In this document: in pieces, positions 47,205 to 61,735 of the stretch
Layout of the letters: each line of letters begins with the position of its first letter
Position numbering within the stretch: the first letter of the stretch is position 1
From: Chitinophagaceae bacterium
GTDB lineage: Bacteria; Bacteroidota; Bacteroidia; Chitinophagales; Chitinophagaceae
Reading direction: 5' to 3'
Length of the DNA stretch: 64,000 bases
Assembly: GCA_014879565.1 (NCBI GenBank)
Contig: JACSRW010000025.1
Location: 1-64,000 of the forward strand
Program-made: the position numbers and the translations under genes
Notes under the pieces: generated by a model
What the model was told of the DNA's origin: nothing
The model's database searches: none
What the model saw: only the letters and a program-made list of their open reading frames with translations

Positions 47205-47267
47205 TTTAATTGAATCCGCCTGCTGGTTACATTGAACACGCCGGTACTGACTAAACCAAAAGACCCG

Positions 47268-48080
47268 ATGCTGAACCGATACCTTTTTTTTCCGCTCCTC
47301 CTGCTGCTGGCAGCCGGCTGGCAGTCCTGCAGTAAGACCCCGGATTCCGGAGATACAGCAGAACCTTATGTTTTGAGTTACGGGGATTCTATTTTGTATA
47401 TGAAGCCTGTCGCCGGTGACTATATTGTGCATCCCCTGCATACCCGTCCGGGCACCTATAACGGGTTTCCTGACGGCATTGAAATTGACGAAACCACAGG
47501 AGCTATCAATGTGACAAAAAGCGAGACCGGACTGAGGTACAGGATTTCACATATTTCCTTAAGTGGTGATACCACTGAAACGCTTGTAGTGTTGTCAGGC
47601 ATCACATTCCGCGACCGGTTTTATAATTTGTCGGCCGGTGATTCTGTCGCCAGGCCTGTGTATAACGCCAGCGAACTCAGACAGGTACCTCTGCCGGGTT
47701 CCCTTTTTGATGAAGGAAACATTGCTAACACCGAAGGTTGTACTGTAAACCCGGAAGATGGCAGCATCAATCTTTCCGCGTCTCTCCGTCAAGGCATCTT
47801 CGGCCCTTCTCCCCGTAACGACGATCAGAAAACCGTGGAGATTCAGTACCGGATCAATGATGCCAGCGGAAAATCAAAAAACAAACTGAAAGTTCTTTTA
47901 TACTGGTATAACAGTATGGCTGATGTACCGGATTACCTTTGGGAAATACTAAATGACAGGACCACCCAGGGTGTTTTTCTCCGGGGCAGTAACCAAAACG
48001 GAAGCCATACGGCTACGGATGCCCGGACGGCCAAAGTAGCCAAACCAAGGCCCCCCTGCGTGGTGATAGTGGATCATTAA
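47268..48080 (+). CDS. Hypothetical lipoprotein with cadherin-like/Ig-like features
   Basis: MLNRYLFFPLLLLLAAGWQSCSK lipobox-like; IEIDETTGAINVTKSETGLRY; 69 bp upstream of CHAT gene on same strand. Confidence 0.65.
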   Translation: MLNRYLFFPLLLLLAAGWQSCSKTPDSGDTAEPYVLSYGDSILYMKPVAGDYIVHPLHTRPGTYNGFPDGIEIDETTGAINVTKSETGLRYRISHISLSGDTTETLVVLSGITFRDRFYNLSAGDSVARPVYNASELRQVPLPGSLFDEGNIANTEGCTVNPEDGSINLSASLRQGIFGPSPRNDDQKTVEIQYRINDASGKSKNKLKVLLYWYNSMADVPDYLWEILNDRTTQGVFLRGSNQNGSHTATDARTAKVAKPRPPCVVIVDH

Positions 48081-48124
48081 TCCGCCAATTCTGATGCCGG
48101 AGACCAACGGATGGAATAGCGGCG

Positions 48125-48132
48125 TATTTTTG
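48125..48132 (+). promoter_or_regulatory. Candidate -7 box TATTTTTG upstream of CHAT gene
   Basis: TAnnTTTG match 17 nt before ATG 48150; no -33 element seen. Confidence 0.35.
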
Positions 48133-48149
48133 ACTATTCTTTCCGACTC

Positions 48150-50975
48150 ATGCGTTTCATCCTTTTTAGTTTACTGACACTTTTATTACTGGGTTACGGT
48201 CTTTCCCAAAAGCAGCCGGTTCAGGTTAATCCTGCAGCTGATTATGAGAAGGCTGCTGCCCTTTTCAGACAGGCCAGGGAACTGGGTGCAACGAAGGAGT
48301 ATACAGAGGAGAAGGAAGCTGCTTTATATGCCGGCAGCCTTGATCTATTCAGAAAACTTACTACACTGTGTGCGTCACAGCAGGAAGACAGTCTTTTAGT
48401 ACTCTCCCATTTATATACGGGCCTTTCGGCCCATTATTTTGACAGCACCCGGCTGGCAATGTATCATTACCAGTCAGCTATCCGGTTATCAGGCCAAATA
48501 AAAAATCTGCCGGACTCTTCCTTATTCCGCGCCTGGCTTTTTGCCGGCAGTATTCATTACGATAAACAGGCTTTTGATTCCGCATTTTTTTATTATCAGC
48601 AGGCAGAAAAAATCTGCGACAGGTATACAATTGCGCTTACGGATGATCAGCGGTTGTACAACAGGCTGGGGGTCATGCAATATGAAACCGGTAATTTCAG
48701 ACAGGCATGGAATTATTTTGAAAAAGCGCTCAGCCGTTTATCTGCCCGTGATCCGGCTTATGAAGATTATCGCTTTAATTACCTGAATAATATTGGAACC
48801 GCCTTATTGAAGCTGGAAAAGTATGAAGAAGCAAGGGCTATATTCCGCCAATTACTTCCGGCAGCAGGTTACCGGAATGAAGTCATGCAGAACCTGGGAA
48901 GTATGGCGCTTAATGAACAACAACCGGCAGAAGCGTTGCGCTGGTTCAGGCAGGTTGATTTAACAAAAGCAAACCTGCTTCTCCTGTATGCCAAAACAGG
49001 CAAAGCGTTCCTGGAACTGGAGCAATATGATTCAGCCGCTTTTTACCTGGATAGTGCACGGCTCCTTTTCCAAAACCGCCAGACCTTCCAGCGCAATATC
49101 GGTTACGGACTGGCTCTTGACTACAGCGGTCAGCTGGCTCTCCGGCTTCGCCAACCTGAAAAAGCGATACGTTTTTACCAGCAGGCTCTTTATCATTTTC
49201 ACAATAACTTTTCCGATACTACGCTGGGCAGTAATCCGGAAAACTTCAGTGGCAGTTTCTCCTATATCCAGTTGTTTCAGGCGCTCAGCGGTAAAGCAGA
49301 ATCTCTTGCTGCCTGTTATCTCCTTGACCAGGACAGGAATTGGCTCCTGCTGGCACTTGAGACTTATCGCTCTGCATTCCGGCTTGCTTCCTATGTTGAA
49401 CGAACCTATGAATCAGATGAAGCACGGATTTTTCTGGGCCGGATCAAACACAGTGCACACAGCCGGCCAATTGATATCAGCCTGCGCTTATTTGAACTGA
49501 ACGGGGATATCCGTTACCTGGAGGATGCCTACTTCTTTGATCAGCTGAACAAAGCTTCAATCCTTTCCCTCAATATCCAGGAGAATGAATGGGCAAGAAA
49601 AGAAAGTGTACGAACAGTTCTGCCGGAACAGGAAAAGCAACTCAGGGGTAGTATCACCCGGCTTACGCTAGCCACCGGAAGAGAAAAAGACAGCAGCCGG
49701 TTAGCTGAAATGTATACCGAAATCAGGGAAAAGGAGATTGCCCTCGGCCGGTTACAGCAGGAAATTGCGGCCGACCCTTACTGGAAAATCAGGGAATCAG
49801 GTTCCCATATTCCCACTGTCAGCCAGTTACAAAAGCGACTGGATAATAACTCAGCACTCCTCTCCTTTCATCTGTCTGAACAGGAATTACTGATACTGGT
49901 TATTACGAACCGGAAATTTGAATATTACCGGACAGAAACAGACAGAGTATTTTATGAACGACTCCGTTTTTTCAGGGAAAGTCTCCGGTCCGTAGCCAAT
50001 GAGGAAAGATACAAAGGCAAACAGGCAGCCACTTCTCTTTACCAGGTACTGATCGGACATATAAGTCCTGCCCTGAAACAAATCACCAGGCTTGTCATTA
50101 TTCCAGATGATGAACTGCATGGCCTTCCCTTTGAGGCACTGCAGGAACCTTCCGGTAAATTTCTGGTGGAACAGTTCTCGGTACAATACCAGTTCAGTAC
50201 CGCCTTTTTTGGCGACAATCCGTCTTCTCCCACGCTGGCAACCGGACTTGCTTTCGCGCCTTTTGCCTCCGGGCAGTTCTCCGAAAATGAAAGCGGGGCT
50301 GCCTGGGAGCTGTTGCCGGCTTCAGGAACAGAGGTGGAAAACATGAAGGGAAAAATTCTGAAAGACTCAGCCGCTACCCGTCATAATTTCTTTGAGCAGG
50401 CTAACCAGTATCCGCTCCTGCACCTTGCCACCCATGCCAGTGTGAATAACGATACTCCTTCTCATTCGTACATAGCCTTTTACCCGGATAATAAAGAATA
50501 CCGTGTGTATGCAGGGGAAATTGCAGAAATGCGGCTGGACTCTGTTCGTCTTGTGATTCTCAGTGCCTGCGAAACAGGCAGCGGGCAACTGGTAAAAGGG
50601 GAAGGGCTGATGAGCTTAACCAGGGCGTTTGCCTATGCCGGCTGCCCGGATATTATTACTTCTCTCTGGATGGCTGAAGACCAGAGCACTGCATTTATTA
50701 CCGGGAGACTTCATTATTATCTTGCCCGGCAATACAGTAAAGACAAAGCTCTTCAACTGGCAAAACTGGATTTTCTTCATAATAATGAAACTGATCCGCG
50801 TTTCCGGTCACCGGGCTATTGGTCACACCTGGTGCTGATTGGCAACTACGAGGAAAACCGCAGTTCACGCAACTGGTGGCGGATTGCGATTTTGATTATC
50901 GGGGGAGCATTGCTTTATTTAATCGCCGGGCGCATCAGAAAAACAGCCGTCCGGAAGGACTTACCGGACGGCTGA
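48150..50975 (+). CDS. Exported TPR-CHAT (caspase HetF-associated with TPRs) protease-like protein with C-terminal TM
   Basis: Signal peptide MRFILFSLLTLLLLGYGLS; TPR region; LLHLATHASVNND (His762) and VILSACETGSGQLVKGEGLMSLTRAFAYAG (Cys807); C-terminal TM WRIAILIIGGALLYLIAG. Confidence 0.92.
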   Translation: MRFILFSLLTLLLLGYGLSQKQPVQVNPAADYEKAAALFRQARELGATKEYTEEKEAALYAGSLDLFRKLTTLCASQQEDSLLVLSHLYTGLSAHYFDSTRLAMYHYQSAIRLSGQIKNLPDSSLFRAWLFAGSIHYDKQAFDSAFFYYQQAEKICDRYTIALTDDQRLYNRLGVMQYETGNFRQAWNYFEKALSRLSARDPAYEDYRFNYLNNIGTALLKLEKYEEARAIFRQLLPAAGYRNEVMQNLGSMALNEQQPAEALRWFRQVDLTKANLLLLYAKTGKAFLELEQYDSAAFYLDSARLLFQNRQTFQRNIGYGLALDYSGQLALRLRQPEKAIRFYQQALYHFHNNFSDTTLGSNPENFSGSFSYIQLFQALSGKAESLAACYLLDQDRNWLLLALETYRSAFRLASYVERTYESDEARIFLGRIKHSAHSRPIDISLRLFELNGDIRYLEDAYFFDQLNKASILSLNIQENEWARKESVRTVLPEQEKQLRGSITRLTLATGREKDSSRLAEMYTEIREKEIALGRLQQEIAADPYWKIRESGSHIPTVSQLQKRLDNNSALLSFHLSEQELLILVITNRKFEYYRTETDRVFYERLRFFRESLRSVANEERYKGKQAATSLYQVLIGHISPALKQITRLVIIPDDELHGLPFEALQEPSGKFLVEQFSVQYQFSTAFFGDNPSSPTLATGLAFAPFASGQFSENESGAAWELLPASGTEVENMKGKILKDSAATRHNFFEQANQYPLLHLATHASVNNDTPSHSYIAFYPDNKEYRVYAGEIAEMRLDSVRLVILSACETGSGQLVKGEGLMSLTRAFAYAGCPDIITSLWMAEDQSTAFITGRLHYYLARQYSKDKALQLAKLDFLHNNETDPRFRSPGYWSHLVLIGNYEENRSSRNWWRIAILIIGGALLYLIAGRIRKTAVRKDLPDG
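50939..50974 (-). terminator. Rho-independent terminator for the DUF4382 gene, embedded in CHAT 3' end
   Basis: 11-bp perfect stem CAGCCGTCCGG/CCGGACGGCTG (50944-50954/50964-50974), followed by TTTTT on the minus strand. Confidence 0.75.
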
Positions 50976-51019
50976 AGGATCAATGATTCTGTACAAGCTG
51001 GTTTTTCATTATTTGTGTA

Positions 51020-51847
51020 TTATTGCTGTAACCTGATCAGCGGCAGATGGGTATCTTCCCGGTTCCGCACTACTACATTCGTAATAGTAGTATCCCGGTA
51101 TCCGTTTTGTCCGTCAATGATGACCGTATAGGTACCCGCATTCAGCCCGACTATCTTGAATTCACCATCATCATCATCCGGAATGGCCGTAGCAGTATCT
51201 GAGCCTATGACCGCTTTGATGATCGGGTCTGCCTCACGGGGAAGCACTTTACCTTCAATGGCCCCCGACCGGCTGCGTGTGAAAATTTTTATATGTGATT
51301 TCAGCCGGTACCCGTTATGGTTGCCGGATCCGCTGTTGTCAACCCGGATAGAATTACCAGCGTCAAAATCAATCCAGAAAAGTACCTGGCTGTTATTGAT
51401 TTCAAAATTGCTGTTATCCAGGTTTGCAATGACTTCCCGGTCCTCATCTTTCACCCGCAAAGGAAAGGATTGTCCGTCTTTCATCACGCTGTTCCGGTCG
51501 CCGGTAATGAGTTTTACTTTTTTCACTCGCGCATTCGGGAGACTGCCGGTTCCGAACAAGGTATCAATACCGTTCCGGAAACGCAAAATATTATAAACAC
51601 CCGGGCGGATAGCAAGGCTGACCCAACCGTCATTCGGCAGGGTATCATCCTCCAGTTTTACTTCCAGTGCCCGTATATCCACAAATACACTGTCAAATAC
51701 AGGTGTCTGGTGATCCGTCAGGTAAATCCGGATGGAATGTGGTTTTGACGGATCAGTATTATTAACGGACACATCTTTCTGACAGGCATACAAAAAAAGG
51801 GACAAAATTGACACCAGGGCTGGTACAAGGAGAATTTTGTTTTTCAT
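51020..51847 (-). CDS. DUF4382-like lipoprotein
   Basis: LSLFLYACQKD lipobox; IRIYLTDHQTPVFDSVFVDIRALEVK typical of DUF4382; C-terminal carboxypeptidase-regulatory-like segment. Confidence 0.8.
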   Translation of the reverse strand: MKNKILLVPALVSILSLFLYACQKDVSVNNTDPSKPHSIRIYLTDHQTPVFDSVFVDIRALEVKLEDDTLPNDGWVSLAIRPGVYNILRFRNGIDTLFGTGSLPNARVKKVKLITGDRNSVMKDGQSFPLRVKDEDREVIANLDNSNFEINNSQVLFWIDFDAGNSIRVDNSGSGNHNGYRLKSHIKIFTRSRSGAIEGKVLPREADPIIKAVIGSDTATAIPDDDDGEFKIVGLNAGTYTVIIDGQNGYRDTTITNVVVRNREDTHLPLIRLQQ

Positions 51848-51876
51848 GGTTGTGTTTTTTAGTGATAAAAAAATCG

Positions 51877-51882
51877 GTTACA
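51877..51882 (-). promoter_or_regulatory. TGTAAC motif (minus) upstream of DUF4382 lipoprotein
   Basis: TTATTGTAACCGATTTTTTTATCAC upstream of ATG 51847. Confidence 0.25.
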
Positions 51883-51950
51883 ATAAGCGTACTGATAATA
51901 AGTAAACGAATAAGCTGTTAATGTAACCCTGTATTGGATTTTAATTAATT

Positions 51951-51972
51951 AAAAGGCCGCCTGAAGGCGGCC
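51951..51972 (-). terminator. Rho-independent terminator of the sigma/anti-sigma operon
   Basis: Minus strand GGCCGCC-TTCA-GGCGGCC-TTTTAATT. Confidence 0.75.
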
Positions 51973-51988
51973 CTGTTGCAGTAAATAC

Positions 51989-52738
51989 TCAATGAATTCT
52001 TTTCCGGACCTGCCTGATCCACGAAACATCTGCCCGGTCATGATAAAGGTGGTTTTCATCCTGCCGGATTTTCTCCAGTAAAGCAAGCGCCCCTGAATAA
52101 TCACCGAGGGCCTGCAGAGCCAGGGCCAGGTAGAATTCTGCCTCATCCTGGAAACCCCGGGTTGCTTCATTTTCGTTTCGGGTCAAAACCGTACGGAATT
52201 GCTGAACCGCTTTCCGGTAATCTTTTAGTTCCATTGCGGCAGCGCCCGCCAGAAATTGCATTCGTATGGTTGCAGCAGAATCTGTTTCCAGTATCCGGAT
52301 TACCTCCGGCCAGGCCCCTGCCCGGTATGCTTTTTCCTGGGCCGGTTCATTAATACCCCTGAAAGATGAAAGTTTATAGTGAACGTAATGCGCGGCAAAC
52401 ATATCTTCTGTCTGCGGGTTGACATAACGGTACAGGAAAAATGCTGACAACAGCAGTATTACAGTTGCTGCAGCAGAAATTACTAATCGGAAATGTCGGC
52501 CCAAGGAGCGCACAGGTCTAACCTGTTCCTGCAACATTGCAGTCCGGCTGTTTTTAACCAGCTGTTGAACGCCGTACAGTTGTACCGCCCTGCGGGCAGT
52601 TTTCAGCCATTCCCATTCTTCCCGGAGTTCCGCATCGGTTTCCAACCGTTTTTCCAGGGCTGTTTTTTCTTCAGGAGGCAAAACCCCGTCAAGCAGATCT
52701 GCCAGTTTTTCACGTAGATCGTTTGTAGAATTATCCAT
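51989..52738 (-). CDS. Anti-sigma-factor-like single-TM protein with TPR-like extracytoplasmic domain
   Basis: Cytoplasmic LADLLDGVLPPEEKTALEKRLETDAELREEWEWLKTAR; TM LVISAAATVILLLSAFFLYRYV; C-terminal TPR-like FQDEAEFYLALALQALGDYSGALALLEKI; 8-nt overlap with sigma gene. Confidence 0.75.
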   Translation of the reverse strand: MDNSTNDLREKLADLLDGVLPPEEKTALEKRLETDAELREEWEWLKTARRAVQLYGVQQLVKNSRTAMLQEQVRPVRSLGRHFRLVISAAATVILLLSAFFLYRYVNPQTEDMFAAHYVHYKLSSFRGINEPAQEKAYRAGAWPEVIRILETDSAATIRMQFLAGAAAMELKDYRKAVQQFRTVLTRNENEATRGFQDEAEFYLALALQALGDYSGALALLEKIRQDENHLYHDRADVSWIRQVRKRIH

Positions 52739-53336
52739 GCAAAAGGTTTTTCAGATTATCTCTTATGGCCGGTTCAGACCGTATCATTTGTTCCAGCTGC
52801 TTCAGACACTTATATTTTTTATTCCTTACCACCTGTTCGGTTTCATAATCAGTCTGGTCAAGAATTTCCCGCATAGACAGGTTTTCATAATAAAACAGGA
52901 GCAGAATTTTACGGCAGGTATCCCCGAGTTTTCCCACCAGCTTTAACAATTCATTCCGGCTTTCCCGGCCAGCAATAAAATCGCTGGTGTCGGGCATTTC
53001 TGTATCCCTGGCATTTTCAAACTTTTCCTCCCGGACTTTTTGCCTTCCCCTTCGTTTGAGTTCATTCAGCCAGGTATAGCGATTCAGAGAGAAAAGGAAT
53101 GTTTTGACAGAGGATTCACCCCTGAACTTACCATTCCGGACCATTTCAATAAAACTGACCAGCACTTCCTGAAAAATATCTTCTGCATCTTCCGGGCTGC
53201 CATTATTGTGTTGAATATACCAGCTCAGGCTCTCAAAACAATGCCTGTAGAGTGCTTTTACCGTCTCCGCCATGTTATTGTCCGTTCGCAGATTCGCCAG
53301 TATTTCCGAATCCGGGAAGTTTCTGATCAGCTCCAT
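52731..53336 (-). CDS. ECF-type RNA polymerase sigma factor
   Basis: EDAEDIFQEVLVSFIEMV region 2, TFLFSLNRYTWLNELKRRGRQ, region 4 ILLLFYYENLSMREILDQTDYETEQVVRNKKYKCLKQLE. Confidence 0.9.
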   Translation of the reverse strand: MELIRNFPDSEILANLRTDNNMAETVKALYRHCFESLSWYIQHNNGSPEDAEDIFQEVLVSFIEMVRNGKFRGESSVKTFLFSLNRYTWLNELKRRGRQKVREEKFENARDTEMPDTSDFIAGRESRNELLKLVGKLGDTCRKILLLFYYENLSMREILDQTDYETEQVVRNKKYKCLKQLEQMIRSEPAIRDNLKNLLHG

Positions 53337-53346
53337 GTGTATTACA

Positions 53347-53354
53347 TAAATTTG
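53347..53354 (+). promoter_or_regulatory. Candidate -7 box TAAATTTG upstream of hscB
   Basis: TAnnTTTG match; 74 nt before ATG 53429. Confidence 0.3.
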
Positions 53355-53428
53355 TGTACCCGGGCAGCCTGTTTGTAACCCGGCTATCCCTTATTTTGCA
53401 GAAATAGTACAAAAACCAATAACCGGCA

Positions 53429-56381: not shown

Positions 56382-56975
56382 TTGAACAACGACCAGTTCA
56401 AATACGAGGAATTCAAACTGCTGTCCTTACTGGCGGAAGACAGCGAGTATGCTTTTCAGTTGCTCTATGACAGACACCGGAACCGAATCTATCAGACAGC
56501 GGTCCGTTTTCTCAAATCTCCCTCATTGGCACAGGAAGTGGTCCAGGATGTTTTTATGAAGCTTTGGTATGAACGCCGCAATCTGAAACCAGGACACCCG
56601 CTGGAGGCCTGGCTTTATACCGTGGCTAAAAACAATATTCTAAACCGACTTAAGAAAATTGCCTCTGAATGGAAAGCACTGGACAACCTGGGCCAGCGGC
56701 CTATACTCACCGATCCCGGAAGCACCCGGCTGGAAGATACCGAATACCAAAACCTGTTGAAACAAGCAGTGGCCAGTCTGCCACCCCAGCAACAAAAAGT
56801 ATTTGAGCTGATCCGGATGGAAAAATTCAGTTATCTGCAGGTGGCCGAAGCATTGAAAATCTCCCCGCTGACCGTAAAAACACATATGTCCCGTTCCCTA
56901 CGCCAGATCAGGCAGTACCTCAAAGAACAGGGGGTGGATTTACCCCTTATACTTCTTTTTTTCAGTTTTTTTTAA
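56382..56975 (+). CDS. FecI-like ECF sigma factor
   Basis: AFQLLYDRHRNRIYQTAVRFLKSPSLAQEVVQDVFMKLW; region 4 SYLQVAEALKISPLTVKTHMSRSLRQIRQYL; TTG start in ORF track. Confidence 0.92.
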   Translation: MNNDQFKYEEFKLLSLLAEDSEYAFQLLYDRHRNRIYQTAVRFLKSPSLAQEVVQDVFMKLWYERRNLKPGHPLEAWLYTVAKNNILNRLKKIASEWKALDNLGQRPILTDPGSTRLEDTEYQNLLKQAVASLPPQQQKVFELIRMEKFSYLQVAEALKISPLTVKTHMSRSLRQIRQYLKEQGVDLPLILLFFSFF

Positions 56976-57041
56976 TCTCCTGTACTCCTTCCGCTGTTTT
57001 CGGTTGTGTTAATCAGGTAACCCCGCTGGGTTAACTGAATT

Positions 57042-58115
57042 ATGCATAACAAAGAACAGATATATTATCTTTTAAACCAATACGAAACTGGCCGGTCAAG
57101 TATTCCTGAGCAGGATGAGCTATTTGCGTTACTGGCCACGGGTGAATACGACCATATAATTGGTGAATACCTGGCAGAGACACTGGAGAAACCCGCATCG
57201 GATAAAGAGGCAGATCTCCCCCCGCATATCGCACAGGATATAATGCGTACGATTATTCATGCAGAAAAACTTACCGGCAAAGTAATCCCTGTTCAACGGA
57301 AAACAAACCGGTGGTACTGGGCGGCTGCAACCATCTTATTACTAATATCTGTCAGTTTTTTCTGGTACCTGGAAAACCCGGAGAAAAAAGAAATAGCCAG
57401 AAATATTCCCATTGAAAATAAACCCGTTACCAACAACACTGACAAAGCCAGTATTATTCTTCTTTCCGATGGCAGCCGGATAACCCTGGAACCGGGCGGA
57501 AAACTGTTTTACCCCGAAAAATTCGCCGGAAAAAACAGAGAGGTTTATCTGGAGGGCATGGCCTTTTTTGATATCAGTCCGGACCCGAATCACCCCTTCC
57601 TCGTATTTGGTAAACATACTGTTACCAAAGTGTTGGGAACCAGTTTTTGGGTACAAACCGGTCTCGCAAGTGAAAAAGAAGTAATCTCCGTTCGAACCGG
57701 AAAAGTGCAGGTATCTGAAATTAAAGAAGAAAGCGGGAATCCTGAACAACAATCATCCGTAATCATTACCCCGAACCAAAAGGCGGTTTATGCCCCGGAC
57801 AAAAGACTCTTTGAAACAACCCTGGTGGACAATCCCCAGCCTGTTCAGAGTACCATAAAGGAAAAAACAGCTCCCGCCATTGTTTGGGTATTTAATTATG
57901 AACAGGAAACCCTGGAAAAAGTGTTCAGGGAACTGGAAAAAGCCTACAGCATAGAAATCATACCGGAAAACCCGGCGGTAAGCCGTTGTTTGTTTACCGG
58001 TGATGTATCGGGAGTAGACCTTTTTACCAAACTGAGAATTATTTGCCTGTCCACCGGGACATCCTACGAAATAAATGGCACCCGTATTCTGATTAAAGGG
58101 AACGGATGTCAGTAA
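57042..58115 (+). CDS. FecR family anti-sigma factor
   Basis: Single TM; IILLSDGSRITLEPGGKLFYPEKF...REVYLEGMAFFDI FecR core; C-terminal DUF4974-like region. Confidence 0.95.
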   Translation: MHNKEQIYYLLNQYETGRSSIPEQDELFALLATGEYDHIIGEYLAETLEKPASDKEADLPPHIAQDIMRTIIHAEKLTGKVIPVQRKTNRWYWAAATILLLISVSFFWYLENPEKKEIARNIPIENKPVTNNTDKASIILLSDGSRITLEPGGKLFYPEKFAGKNREVYLEGMAFFDISPDPNHPFLVFGKHTVTKVLGTSFWVQTGLASEKEVISVRTGKVQVSEIKEESGNPEQQSSVIITPNQKAVYAPDKRLFETTLVDNPQPVQSTIKEKTAPAIVWVFNYEQETLEKVFRELEKAYSIEIIPENPAVSRCLFTGDVSGVDLFTKLRIICLSTGTSYEINGTRILIKGNGCQ

Positions 58116-58273
58116 CTGAACTGCTAACTAAAACGATTGCTTATGAAAAAAAGAAACCCCACCTGAAAAGAAAAAAAGAACCGGCAGTGTTGGCGCACAA
58201 ACCGGTTCCATAAAAGCTATTACAGCTTTCTGTTTTGTTAAACCTACTTGTTAAACAAAAACATAATAAATAT

Positions 58274-61200
58274 ATGAAAAATAAGCAACGCCTTGTTGCT
58301 TCCATACGCATTGCCATGAGAATAACACTTGTACAGTTAGCCCTTACAGTTGTTTTTGCCGGCACTACTTATGCCCATGAAGCAAATGGCCAGGAAGTAC
58401 TACAGAAAACCTTTACCATAAAGGCAGATAATCAACCGCTTAAGAAAGTCATTGCGGAAATTCAGAAACAAACCGGTGCCCGTTTCTCCTATAGCGTCAC
58501 CGCGATAAATGCCCAGGACCGCAGGTACAGTTTTGCGGCGCAGAATACACGTATTCTGGATTTCCTGATGGGTATCCTGAAACCGGACAATATCGGGTAT
58601 GAAGTGATCGAGGAAAAAATTGTGCTGTTCCCGATGCCCGACAAAAAGTTAGTTCTGACAGAAAACAGCATTATCGAATCGCCGCAAAAAATTGTGAAGG
58701 GGAAGATAGTGGATGAAAAAGGTTCCCCGGTTGGAGGTGTTACGATTACAGAAAAGGGGAAAAGAAATGCGGTAATTGCTGATGTCAGCGGGCAGTTTAC
58801 AATCCAGGTGGAAGATGATAACGCCATCCTCATATTGAGCAGTGTGGGATATGAAGCCCTTGAAATTCCGGTTTCACGGATTGGCAATAATGCCATCGTG
58901 ATGAAAGAAGAGGTAAAAGGCATGCAGGATGTGGTAGTAACTGCTTTGGGTATCCGCCGCCAGGAAAGATCACTGGGCTACTCCACCCAATCGGTGAAGG
59001 GGAATACCCTGCAAACGGTGAAAGGCGTGGATGTAACCACATCCCTGACCGGCAAAGTAGCCGGTATGATTGTACGGAACAGCAGTGAGTTTGTTGCCGA
59101 ACCCCAGATCTCTCTGCGGGGAGAAACACCCCTTATTGTTATTGACGGAGTTCCTTACGGCAATATGACGCTGCGGGATATTCCGTCTGATGATATTGAA
59201 ACCATCAACGTACTGAAAGGAGCCACGGCCTCCGCGCTCTATGGAGAAAGAGGCGGCAGTGGCGCCATTATGGTCACCACCCGCAAGGGGGCTGCCGGTA
59301 AAGGACTCAGCCTTTCGTTTAACAGCAGTTCCATGTTTGAGGCCGGTTACCTGGCCATACCGGAAATGCAGGGAAAATACGGACGGGTCATAAACGCAGC
59401 CACCAACACGTATGTACGTTCCGGTGATGGTTCCTGGGGTGCTCCGTTGGAAGGACAGGATGTTATCCAGTGGGACCCTGTAAGCAAAACCATGAAATCC
59501 ATGCCCCTCCTGCCCCGTGGCGCGAACAATTTTGCCAACTTCCTTGAGCAGGGCTATATTCTGAACAATAACCTGAGTATTGCCCAGACCGGAGAAATGG
59601 GAGGCTTCCGCGCCTCTGCTACCTGGGTGCAAAACAAAGGCACTTATCCGAATTCAAAATTTGACAAGCTTACCTATAGCGTGGGTGGTGATATCCGGGT
59701 GAAAAAATTCTCCCTGACCACTTCCCTCTCTTATAACAAACACAGTTCACCCAATGTGGGCTTCAGCGGTTATACCGGTTATGATCCCATGTACAGCCTG
59801 CTTATCTGGTCTTCTCCCGATTGGGATATCCGGGACTATAAAGATTATTGGGTTGTACCGAATGAAGTACAGAACAGCAGTTATACCGCCGGGAACAACA
59901 ACCCCTATTTTGATCGTTATGAGAGAATCAAGAAATATAACAAGGATATCTTCAGCGGACAACTGACCATGAACTATGATATCCTCAGCTGGTTAAAAGC
60001 CACCGTACGTACCGGGTACGATACTTACAGCAATACCCAGGATATCCAGGTCTCCAAGGGCTCCTTCCAGGGGGCAGGAAGTGCCACGGTACTTTCCATG
60101 AGTGGTGCCACTGAAGTCTGGGGTGAATCACAGAAAGGTTCTTTCAATAAAGGTATCGGCCGCGGCTACAGCAGCAGCAACGAGGCCATGATCCTGGCCA
60201 ACCAGAAGTTCAGTGATTTCACCGTTGATGGCTTTGTGGGCGGATCAATTTATTACAAACAGGATGAAGGTATTGAGGCCCGTACCCGCGGTGGACTTTC
60301 CATCCCCGGGTATTATTCCCTGAAAGCCTCCATTGATCCGGTTAATATCCTTTCACTCGTTTACAAGAAACAAACCAATTCTGTATTTGGTAAAGTAGGG
60401 GTGAACTGGAAAAATACGGCTTTCCTTGAGGGCACGTTCCGGAATGACTGGACGTCCACCCTCTCCCGGGAAACACGCTCTTATTTCTATCCCTCTGTGG
60501 CAGGAAGCCTGGTACTCTCTGACCTGATCCCGAAAAAAGAATGGCTTTCACACTGGAAAGTGCGTGGCTCCTGGACGGTTTATAAAACAACCCCTGGTAT
60601 CTATGCCATTAACGATGTGTTTACCATTGCCACCAATCAATGGGGCACACTCGGCAGTGCCGGTTACCCGACTACTATCAGACCCGATAACATCTTCGCG
60701 GAAAGTTATAACACCGCTGAGATCGGCACACTGGCCAGTTTCCTGAAAAACAGGATTACCCTGGATCTGACCTACTATGCCAAAAAGGGATATGACTATA
60801 TCCGTACAGCCAGTATCAGTCCGGCCTCCGGCTTTACCGGCGTATACCTGAATACAGATGAAGAGCGGACCCGCCGCGGAGTGGAAATTACCCTTTCCGC
60901 CGTTCCGGTCAGAACGAATGATCTCCGCTGGGAAGTGGCTTTTAACTGGGCCAAATCGGCGCAATACTATACAAAGCTTGACAGCCTCTACACTGCGGGC
61001 GTGGGCCGCGACTGGGTACAGGTGGGCAAACGCACTGATTTCTATGTGATCAACGAATACCAGACAGATAATGCGGGTAATATCGTGTTCAACAACGGGG
61101 TTCCCACTTACAAACCGGTACTTTCACTGGCCGGCTATTCCGATCCCGACTGGATGTGGGGTTTCAGCAGCACGCTGAATTATAAGCGTTTTGCCCTGAA

Positions 61201-61735
61201 TATTTCCTTTGACGGACGGGTTGGCGGTCTGGCACAATCCATTACAGAAATGTATATGTGGCGTTCCGGTAATCACCCCAACTCCCTTACGGAGGAAAGA
61301 TACCTGGATGCCAAAACACCAGGCAGCAAAAACTACCTCGGTCAGGGTGTGAAAGTGGTATCCGGCTCTATTGTATATGATGCCAATCAGAAGATGGTGA
61401 CCGACACCCGGGTATTTGCCCCCAACGATGTCTACACCACCTACAAATCATATATAGAAGCCCTGCACAAAGGCACTGCCTGGGGTGGTTCCCCCTCCCC
61501 GGTTGACCTGTATTCCACCTCCTTCTTTAAATTACGGGAACTCTCTGTCAGTTATCGTCTCCCGGATAATTTACTGAAGCGGGTCGGATCCAAAGGCATC
61601 TCCGTTTCGGCTGTTGGCCAGAACCTGATTTACTGGGCCAAACAATTCAAGTATTCAGACATTGACGGCGGTTCTGAAAACTTCATTGATCCGTCCATGC
61701 GTTATATCGGGTTTAATGTGAAAGTTGATTTCTAA
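58274..61735 (+). CDS. SusC/RagA family TonB-linked outer membrane protein with N-terminal STN domain
   Basis: STN (FTIKADNQPLKKVIAEIQKQTGARFSYS), CarboxypepD_reg-like, plug VVVTALGIRRQERSLGYSTQSVKG, INVLKGATASALYGERGGSGAIMVTTRKG. Confidence 0.96.
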   Translation: MKNKQRLVASIRIAMRITLVQLALTVVFAGTTYAHEANGQEVLQKTFTIKADNQPLKKVIAEIQKQTGARFSYSVTAINAQDRRYSFAAQNTRILDFLMGILKPDNIGYEVIEEKIVLFPMPDKKLVLTENSIIESPQKIVKGKIVDEKGSPVGGVTITEKGKRNAVIADVSGQFTIQVEDDNAILILSSVGYEALEIPVSRIGNNAIVMKEEVKGMQDVVVTALGIRRQERSLGYSTQSVKGNTLQTVKGVDVTTSLTGKVAGMIVRNSSEFVAEPQISLRGETPLIVIDGVPYGNMTLRDIPSDDIETINVLKGATASALYGERGGSGAIMVTTRKGAAGKGLSLSFNSSSMFEAGYLAIPEMQGKYGRVINAATNTYVRSGDGSWGAPLEGQDVIQWDPVSKTMKSMPLLPRGANNFANFLEQGYILNNNLSIAQTGEMGGFRASATWVQNKGTYPNSKFDKLTYSVGGDIRVKKFSLTTSLSYNKHSSPNVGFSGYTGYDPMYSLLIWSSPDWDIRDYKDYWVVPNEVQNSSYTAGNNNPYFDRYERIKKYNKDIFSGQLTMNYDILSWLKATVRTGYDTYSNTQDIQVSKGSFQGAGSATVLSMSGATEVWGESQKGSFNKGIGRGYSSSNEAMILANQKFSDFTVDGFVGGSIYYKQDEGIEARTRGGLSIPGYYSLKASIDPVNILSLVYKKQTNSVFGKVGVNWKNTAFLEGTFRNDWTSTLSRETRSYFYPSVAGSLVLSDLIPKKEWLSHWKVRGSWTVYKTTPGIYAINDVFTIATNQWGTLGSAGYPTTIRPDNIFAESYNTAEIGTLASFLKNRITLDLTYYAKKGYDYIRTASISPASGFTGVYLNTDEERTRRGVEITLSAVPVRTNDLRWEVAFNWAKSAQYYTKLDSLYTAGVGRDWVQVGKRTDFYVINEYQTDNAGNIVFNNGVPTYKPVLSLAGYSDPDWMWGFSSTLNYKRFALNISFDGRVGGLAQSITEMYMWRSGNHPNSLTEERYLDAKTPGSKNYLGQGVKVVSGSIVYDANQKMVTDTRVFAPNDVYTTYKSYIEALHKGTAWGGSPSPVDLYSTSFFKLRELSVSYRLPDNLLKRVGSKGISVSAVGQNLIYWAKQFKYSDIDGGSENFIDPSMRYIGFNVKVDF

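Follow-up and report, generated by a model that had tools for sequence, protein, structure and literature searches.

We analysed a window of 64,000 nucleotides, by which we mean the whole stretch of DNA studied, from a 3.43-Mb draft genome; among named records, the closest relatives of the locus described here (L077-L080) are mostly labelled Chitinophagaceae. A check of open reading frames recovered all five genes where the initial annotation had placed them and bore out the 8-nt overlap that it had described between the sigma factor gene and its neighbor (Table 1). The lipoprotein and TPR-CHAT genes are co-directional, and the DUF4382 gene and the sigma/anti-sigma pair occupy the opposite strand. 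The mechanical reading frame for the first lipoprotein begins at a TTG at 47232 rather than at the annotated ATG at 47268; we retained the ATG because it fits a promoter-like motif at 47225-47252. Among the neighboring genes examined (flanks with tsaD, hscB and lipoproteins) we found neither a Cas7-11/gRAMP effector nor CRISPR neighbors. An antiphage role was considered and is not supported, given that no PADLOC match rose above noise and that the flanking genes are housekeeping genes. The same window also carries a separate FecI/FecR/TonB-receptor signaling cassette at 56382-61729, which is unrelated to the CHAT module.

Table 1. Genes, predicted functional residues and promoter-like motifs of the CHAT locus (window coordinates)
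Feature	Coordinates	Strand	Basis or remark
Promoter-like motif GGTTACA-N17-GACT, upstream of lipoprotein-CHAT operon	47225..47252	+	also before genus orthologues
Lipoprotein, c5 family, tail ...AKPRPPCVVIVDH	47268..48080	+	homologue comparison
Putative TPR-CHAT protease: signal sequence, TPR solenoid, CHAT 625-899, C-terminal TM about 911-930	48150..50975	+	
Glu728 codon of CHAT, predicted contributor to P1 Arg pocket	50331..50333	+	covaries with anti-sigma Arg127
His762 codon of CHAT, predicted catalytic dyad	50433..50435	+	invariant
Cys807 codon of CHAT, predicted catalytic dyad	50568..50570	+	invariant
Asp844 codon of CHAT (SLWxxxD loop), predicted contributor to P1 Arg pocket	50679..50681	+	covaries with Arg127
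DUF4382 + CarboxypepD_reg-like lipoprotein, convergent with CHAT	51020..51847	-	DUF4382 E=1.5e-15
Promoter-like motif GGTTACA-N17-TACT, upstream of DUF4382 gene	51901..51928	-	
Single-TM anti-sigma-like protein (249 aa)	51989..52738	-	predicted cytoplasmic helices 4-70, TM 81-106, periplasmic TPR 110-248
Arg127 codon of anti-sigma-like protein, predicted P1 of CHAT cut site, juxtamembrane periplasmic loop	52358..52360	-	covariation
ECF sigma factor, 8-nt overlap with anti-sigma gene	52731..53336	-	TIGR02937 E=2.5e-19, above cut-off
Promoter-like motif GGTTACA-N17-CACA, upstream of sigma gene, autoregulation predicted	53353..53380	-	

The CHAT domain was recovered with high significance (PF12770, E=7.6e-56, 190 bits against a curated Pfam cut-off of 24), and TPRs lie at about residues 150-350 of the same protein. 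Its structural model (pLDDT 87) shows a TPR solenoid, the CHAT domain and, at the C-terminus, a helix compatible with a transmembrane segment. Each member of the His762/Cys807 dyad is present in 78 of 79 aligned linked CHATs, the remaining row being a gap in the alignment, and CHAT is a putative cysteine protease that would use these two residues. The window's CHAT carries a predicted N-terminal signal sequence together with a C-terminal TM segment at about residue 911, in keeping with the envelope localization proposed at the outset; across the family, 30 of 39 proteins have a C-terminal TM segment, which Lys or Arg usually follows, and a hydrophobic signal is present at the N-terminus of most.

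The 249-aa protein was modeled with high confidence (pLDDT 92) as three cytoplasmic helices, a TM helix spanning residues 81-106, a loop at 118-132 and then TPR helices. It contains no curated anti-sigma domain above cut-off and gave no match to a FecR domain in profile searches; we predict that it is a putative ECF anti-sigma factor based on a below-cut-off match to NF010501 (residues 6-118, E=5e-7, 29.5 bits against a cut-off of 225), a weak zf-HC2 match, its topology and its gene order, and its pairing with the sigma factor is conserved across loci. A single TM segment is present in 39 of 42 such anti-sigmas, nearly all of which have more Lys and Arg before the segment than after it, as expected for an N-in protein with its ectodomain outside. 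Given this orientation, and the signal sequence and C-terminal TM segment of CHAT, the functional parts of both proteins are predicted to reside in the periplasm. The initial annotation had further suggested that matching TPR modules mediate docking between the two, an idea that gained no specific support. Fold searches with the anti-sigma model returned generic TPR matches alone, none at E <= 0.001.

Absence of conserved co-occurrence beyond this genome had been named as grounds for abandoning a functional link; our neighborhood analysis instead found that the linkage of CHAT, sigma and anti-sigma recurs across Bacteroidota. We gathered 80 named CHAT loci by CHAT sequence alone, 75 of them from outside the genus. 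Within these 75, a TPR anti-sigma gene lies within 300 bp in 22 cases, 19 of which are convergent, tail to tail, and within 8 kb in 39 cases. In a reciprocal set built from anti-sigmas of the order, 28 of the 35 with sufficient flank to be counted have a CHAT gene within 6 kb. Hosts of the module include Runella, Roseivirga, Fulvivirga, Splendidivirga, Aquimarina, Saprospiraceae and Bacteroidales MAGs and one Chlorobiota MAG. Gene orders vary between convergent, divergent and operonic: the window's own family is mostly convergent, other families are often divergent with a secreted-protein gene between, and a class with Met in place of anti-sigma Arg127 (below) lies mostly on one strand. About half of CHAT loci have no anti-sigma within 8 kb, some of which is explained by contig ends. 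At three loci from three species (L033, L034 and L037) a group of cytochrome c, OB-fold, YceI and DUF5777 genes stands between CHAT and the anti-sigma; the DUF4382 gene was not found in two of the three, and in L033 a GGTTACA-type motif precedes the inserted group.

We did not accept linkage within the genus as evidence for function, and it proves little, because the entire block from an ABC permease gene and tsaD to hscB is syntenic there. One genome of the genus (G031) has lost CHAT, DUF4382, anti-sigma and sigma together and kept the flanks (tsaD at 80% identity), between which only lipoprotein residues 52-206 persist as a truncated remnant (L293, contig C3, 9615-10079). In family f20 (L197, L204, L208 and L042) a sigma/anti-sigma pair with Arg127 occurs with no CHAT nearby; a DEAD-box helicase gene adjoins the pair in the first three of these.

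Closer inspection of intergenic regions revealed a shared promoter-like motif. Within the genus, GGTTACA-N17-(T/G/C)AC stands about 44 bp ahead of most sigma genes, and the GGTTACA-N17 motif recurs at a similar distance from the lipoprotein-CHAT operon; most DUF4382 genes also have it upstream. It was not found directly before CHAT itself, the anti-sigma gene or hscB at these loci. Outside the genus, sequences upstream of sigma genes are enriched for GGTTAC (P 4e-10) and GGTAAC (P 7e-8), and those upstream of CHAT operons for GGTAAC (P 5e-4), while TTACCTT is enriched ahead of sigma genes but not ahead of CHAT operons. A genome-wide regulon was rejected, as a whole-genome scan found the pattern no more often than its reversed control, and we thus claim the predicted regulon for the locus only.

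Covariation between the two proteins provides evidence for a protease-substrate relationship. Arg127 of the anti-sigma is the fifth most conserved column among 101 anti-sigmas (92%, at an overall identity of about 20%). Of the 79 linked CHATs in the initial set, 74 have an Arg anti-sigma as partner and keep both E728 and D844 (73 residues and one gap at each position), whereas all five paired with a Met or Lys anti-sigma had lost E728 in the alignment. A second set, retrieved through anti-sigma similarity only and with two Met types among the queries, behaved in the same way: eight of eight new Met-class pairs are without E728 and D844, whereas Arg-class pairs retain both. After deduplication, which removed the duplicate contigs L090/L203 ahead of the final count, both acidic residues are present in 90 of 90 Arg-class pairs, and in the Met class E728 is absent from 12 of 12 and D844 from 11 of 12 (Fisher 7e-16, a test that ignores ancestry), the Met-class replacement for D844 usually being Glu, a conservative change that is still acidic. 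In three pairs (L264, L281 and L285) the Arg is hidden by an alignment shift of one or two residues and was read by eye as Arg; the K-class pairs L095 and L275 are ambiguous and were left out of the support. The Met-class modules (L250-L258, L271, L276, L040 and L224) carry an anti-sigma loop of the form DPGLPxxM(S/G) or similar and have a distinct gene order, with CHAT usually directly behind the anti-sigma gene on the same strand.

As a control for clade effects, we ranked the conserved columns by how far each falls between the two classes. Within the 34 columns that Arg-class CHATs conserve, the largest falls are those of E728 (100% to 0%) and D844 (100% to 8%), and among 17 anti-sigma columns Arg127 falls most (97% to 0%). 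When the CHAT tree was computed with the two columns left out, five changes of residue class and four changes at E728 were counted along it; one clade holds ten pairs, and the R-to-M switch recurs outside this main clade in L103 and L225. Since there are about three clear independent R-to-M switches, a tree-aware test is low in power. Arg127 is also retained in 13 of 16 anti-sigmas without CHAT in the examined flank, which, together with the f20 pairs, means that the Arg could serve another role or that CHAT could act from elsewhere. With these points weighed, the matched changes in protease and anti-sigma probably mark the spot where CHAT cuts, with E728 and D844 predicted to line a pocket for the P1 Arg. 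D844 lies near the separase Asp in the same loop; we did not accept its identity with separase D2151, as the sequence alignment puts Csx29 K670 four residues further on.

Collectively, the topology, the promoter-like motif, the loss of the block in a relative and the R127/E728/D844 covariation all speak for an action of CHAT on the ectodomain of the anti-sigma. Our preferred reading, held with moderate confidence, is a switch split between a site-1 protease and an anti-sigma, with positive feedback. The cytoplasmic N-terminal helices of the 249-aa protein would hold the ECF sigma factor at the inner membrane. On an envelope signal, the periplasmic CHAT, anchored at its C-terminus, would remove the TPR ectodomain of the anti-sigma by a cut behind Arg127, which lies about 21 residues beyond the membrane. 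By analogy with DegS/RseP/RseA, the remaining stump may then pass to an RseP-type site-2 protease and cytoplasmic proteases, freeing sigma; an M50 site-2 protease is encoded in the genome (PF02163, E 1e-51), weak support given that the family is nearly universal. Freed sigma is predicted, from the shared motif, to drive transcription of the sigma/anti-sigma pair itself, of the operon that holds the lipoprotein and CHAT genes, and of the DUF4382 gene.

We also considered the lipoprotein encoded with CHAT. Arg-Pro-Pro is unchanged in all 23 members of its family, each of which lies beside CHAT, and a hydrophobic strand follows it in the C-terminal tail. An Arg-Pro bond typically resists cleavage, which makes a pseudosubstrate role for the tail possible. 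An extended version of this idea, a periplasmic "separase with its securin", would have the uncleavable tail keep a CHAT with specificity for Arg inactive until displaced in response to an envelope signal, with matched P1/pocket pairs (Arg with E728 and D844, Met without E728) insulating the several parallel copies present in some genomes; we regard this as speculative and unlikely. The upstream partner differs by clade and can be a thiol-cytolysin-family lipoprotein, a PKD/DUF7619 protein, a subtilase or a T9SS cargo protein. In L207, L210, L215 and L216, the gene ahead of CHAT is co-directional with it and encodes a lipoprotein of ~600 aa; that of L210 has a thiol-activated-cytolysin domain (PF01289, E 8e-38), and the other three are similar to it or share its C-terminus.

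The variety of these partners feeds the main rival explanation, that CHAT is an effector within the sigma regulon whose task in the envelope is to process its operon partner (the lipoprotein or some other secreted product), and that another protease inactivates the anti-sigma. The co-directional gene immediately upstream of CHAT is signal-bearing, hence usually secreted, in 52 of 70 loci against a background of 502 of 1127; this upstream gene varies by clade and in one form encodes a lipoprotein with a thiol-cytolysin-family domain; the CHAT operon carries a sigma-type promoter-like motif; and a TPR-CHAT is reported to activate gasdermin (PMC9729208). We nonetheless judge this reading to have a low probability, as it leaves unexplained both why anti-sigma Arg127 tracks with E728 and D844 of CHAT and why CHAT in the Met class is mostly directly behind the anti-sigma gene on the same strand.

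Invariance of the dyad in linked CHATs weighs against a second rival, in which CHAT is a non-proteolytic sensor subunit whose TPR solenoid docks on the anti-sigma TPR and signals by conformational change, since docking alone would not need a dyad; the covarying CHAT residues, moreover, are acidic positions inside the protease domain. The TPRs of both proteins are predicted on the same side of the membrane, TPR-CHAT belongs to the anti-sigma itself in Myxococcus DdvA, and the DdvA active site was reportedly described in 2024 as incomplete, all of which would suit a sensor; we consider it improbable even so. Inherited synteny without function, with the R/M pattern reflecting clade history, accords with the syntenic in-genus block that includes tsaD and hscB and with one clade holding most Met-class pairs, but is very improbable, given that the linkage recurs across the phylum in unrelated surroundings and opposite orientations, that the most class-discriminating conserved columns are the juxtamembrane Arg and two CHAT acids, and that the switch recurs outside the main clade.

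The favored reading, a split protease/anti-sigma switch, has features in common with several known systems and differs from each of them. In the RseA/DegS/RseP pathway, a single-TM anti-sigma with a periplasmic domain receives a site-1 cut outside the membrane and then a cut by a site-2 protease; the anti-sigma described here has the same layout and its genome encodes a site-2 protease, but the predicted site-1 enzyme is a cysteine protease of the caspase/separase fold, whereas theirs is a PDZ serine protease. FecI/FecR/TonB-receptor systems likewise pair a Bacteroidota ECF sigma with a membrane anti-sigma, but the CHAT locus has neither a FecR domain nor a TonB receptor. Earlier surveys had recorded ECF sigmas with CHAT or caspase genes nearby (PMC8999054, PMC3501461, PMC8195603); these are neighborhood reports only and describe neither the TPR anti-sigma/CHAT pair nor any coupling of residues. 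The ECF54 group of Actinobacteria, moreover, is described as being without an anti-sigma (PMC8999054), whereas this locus encodes an anti-sigma-like protein.

The CRISPR-independent analogy with Craspase, proposed in the initial annotation, holds. In Craspase, the TPR-CHAT protease Csx29 cuts Csx30, an inhibitor of an ECF sigma (PMC10028731), and the present locus similarly combines a TPR-CHAT protein with a putative ECF sigma inhibitor, with cleavage being a prediction from sequence. The best fold match of the CHAT model is a Craspase chain (8eey_B, TM 0.43/0.53). Craspase differs in being RNA-activated with Cas7-11 and cytoplasmic, and Csx30 is not a single-TM TPR anti-sigma. The predicted specificity pocket also differs: when Csx29 was aligned by profile, a gap fell opposite E728 and a Ser opposite D844, with no acidic residue at either position. 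Separase relies on an Asp for its cut after Arg; Csx29 has a different residue there and is reported to cleave behind Leu (PMC9729208) or, in the case of another species, at residues 427-429 with a requirement for M427 (PMC10028731).

A closer precedent, which the initial annotation did not name, is DdvS/DdvA of Myxococcus xanthus (PDB 8rot, 8rw5), which likewise consists of an ECF sigma, a transmembrane anti-sigma and a TPR-CHAT structure. Foldseek matched the CHAT model to the DdvA structures (E 2.3e-15 and 9.7e-15) with TM-scores of only 0.27-0.29, which place the similarity at domain level, and H762 and C807 align to the LATHG/LAACEGG motifs of DdvA. DdvA holds DdvS inactive, the triggering signal not being known (PMC4374960), and DdvS drives a CBASS/CRISPR island (PMC12288465), whereas the predicted targets here are the envelope genes of the locus itself. 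In DdvA the anti-sigma and TPR-CHAT are fused, whereas here they are two proteins with separate membrane anchors. The locus is therefore not a member of Craspase, having no CRISPR and a predicted periplasmic site of action, and lacks the fused architecture of DdvA; a literature search of incomplete coverage found no description of the two-protein Bacteroidota system or of the Arg127/E728/D844 coupling. It would nonetheless operate in the manner of both, and we class it among the ECF sigma systems under proteolytic control, as a variant that is split, independent of CRISPR and spread across the phylum. Bacteroidota have many CHAT proteins, mostly without a known substrate, and for a large set of them the analysis now predicts a substrate, the residue at which it is cut and the pocket that confers specificity. 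Craspase and DdvA can likewise be placed in a broader pattern of ECF sigma control by TPR-CHAT proteases. Should the R/M pairing hold, these loci would provide a natural set of insulated protease/anti-sigma pairs.
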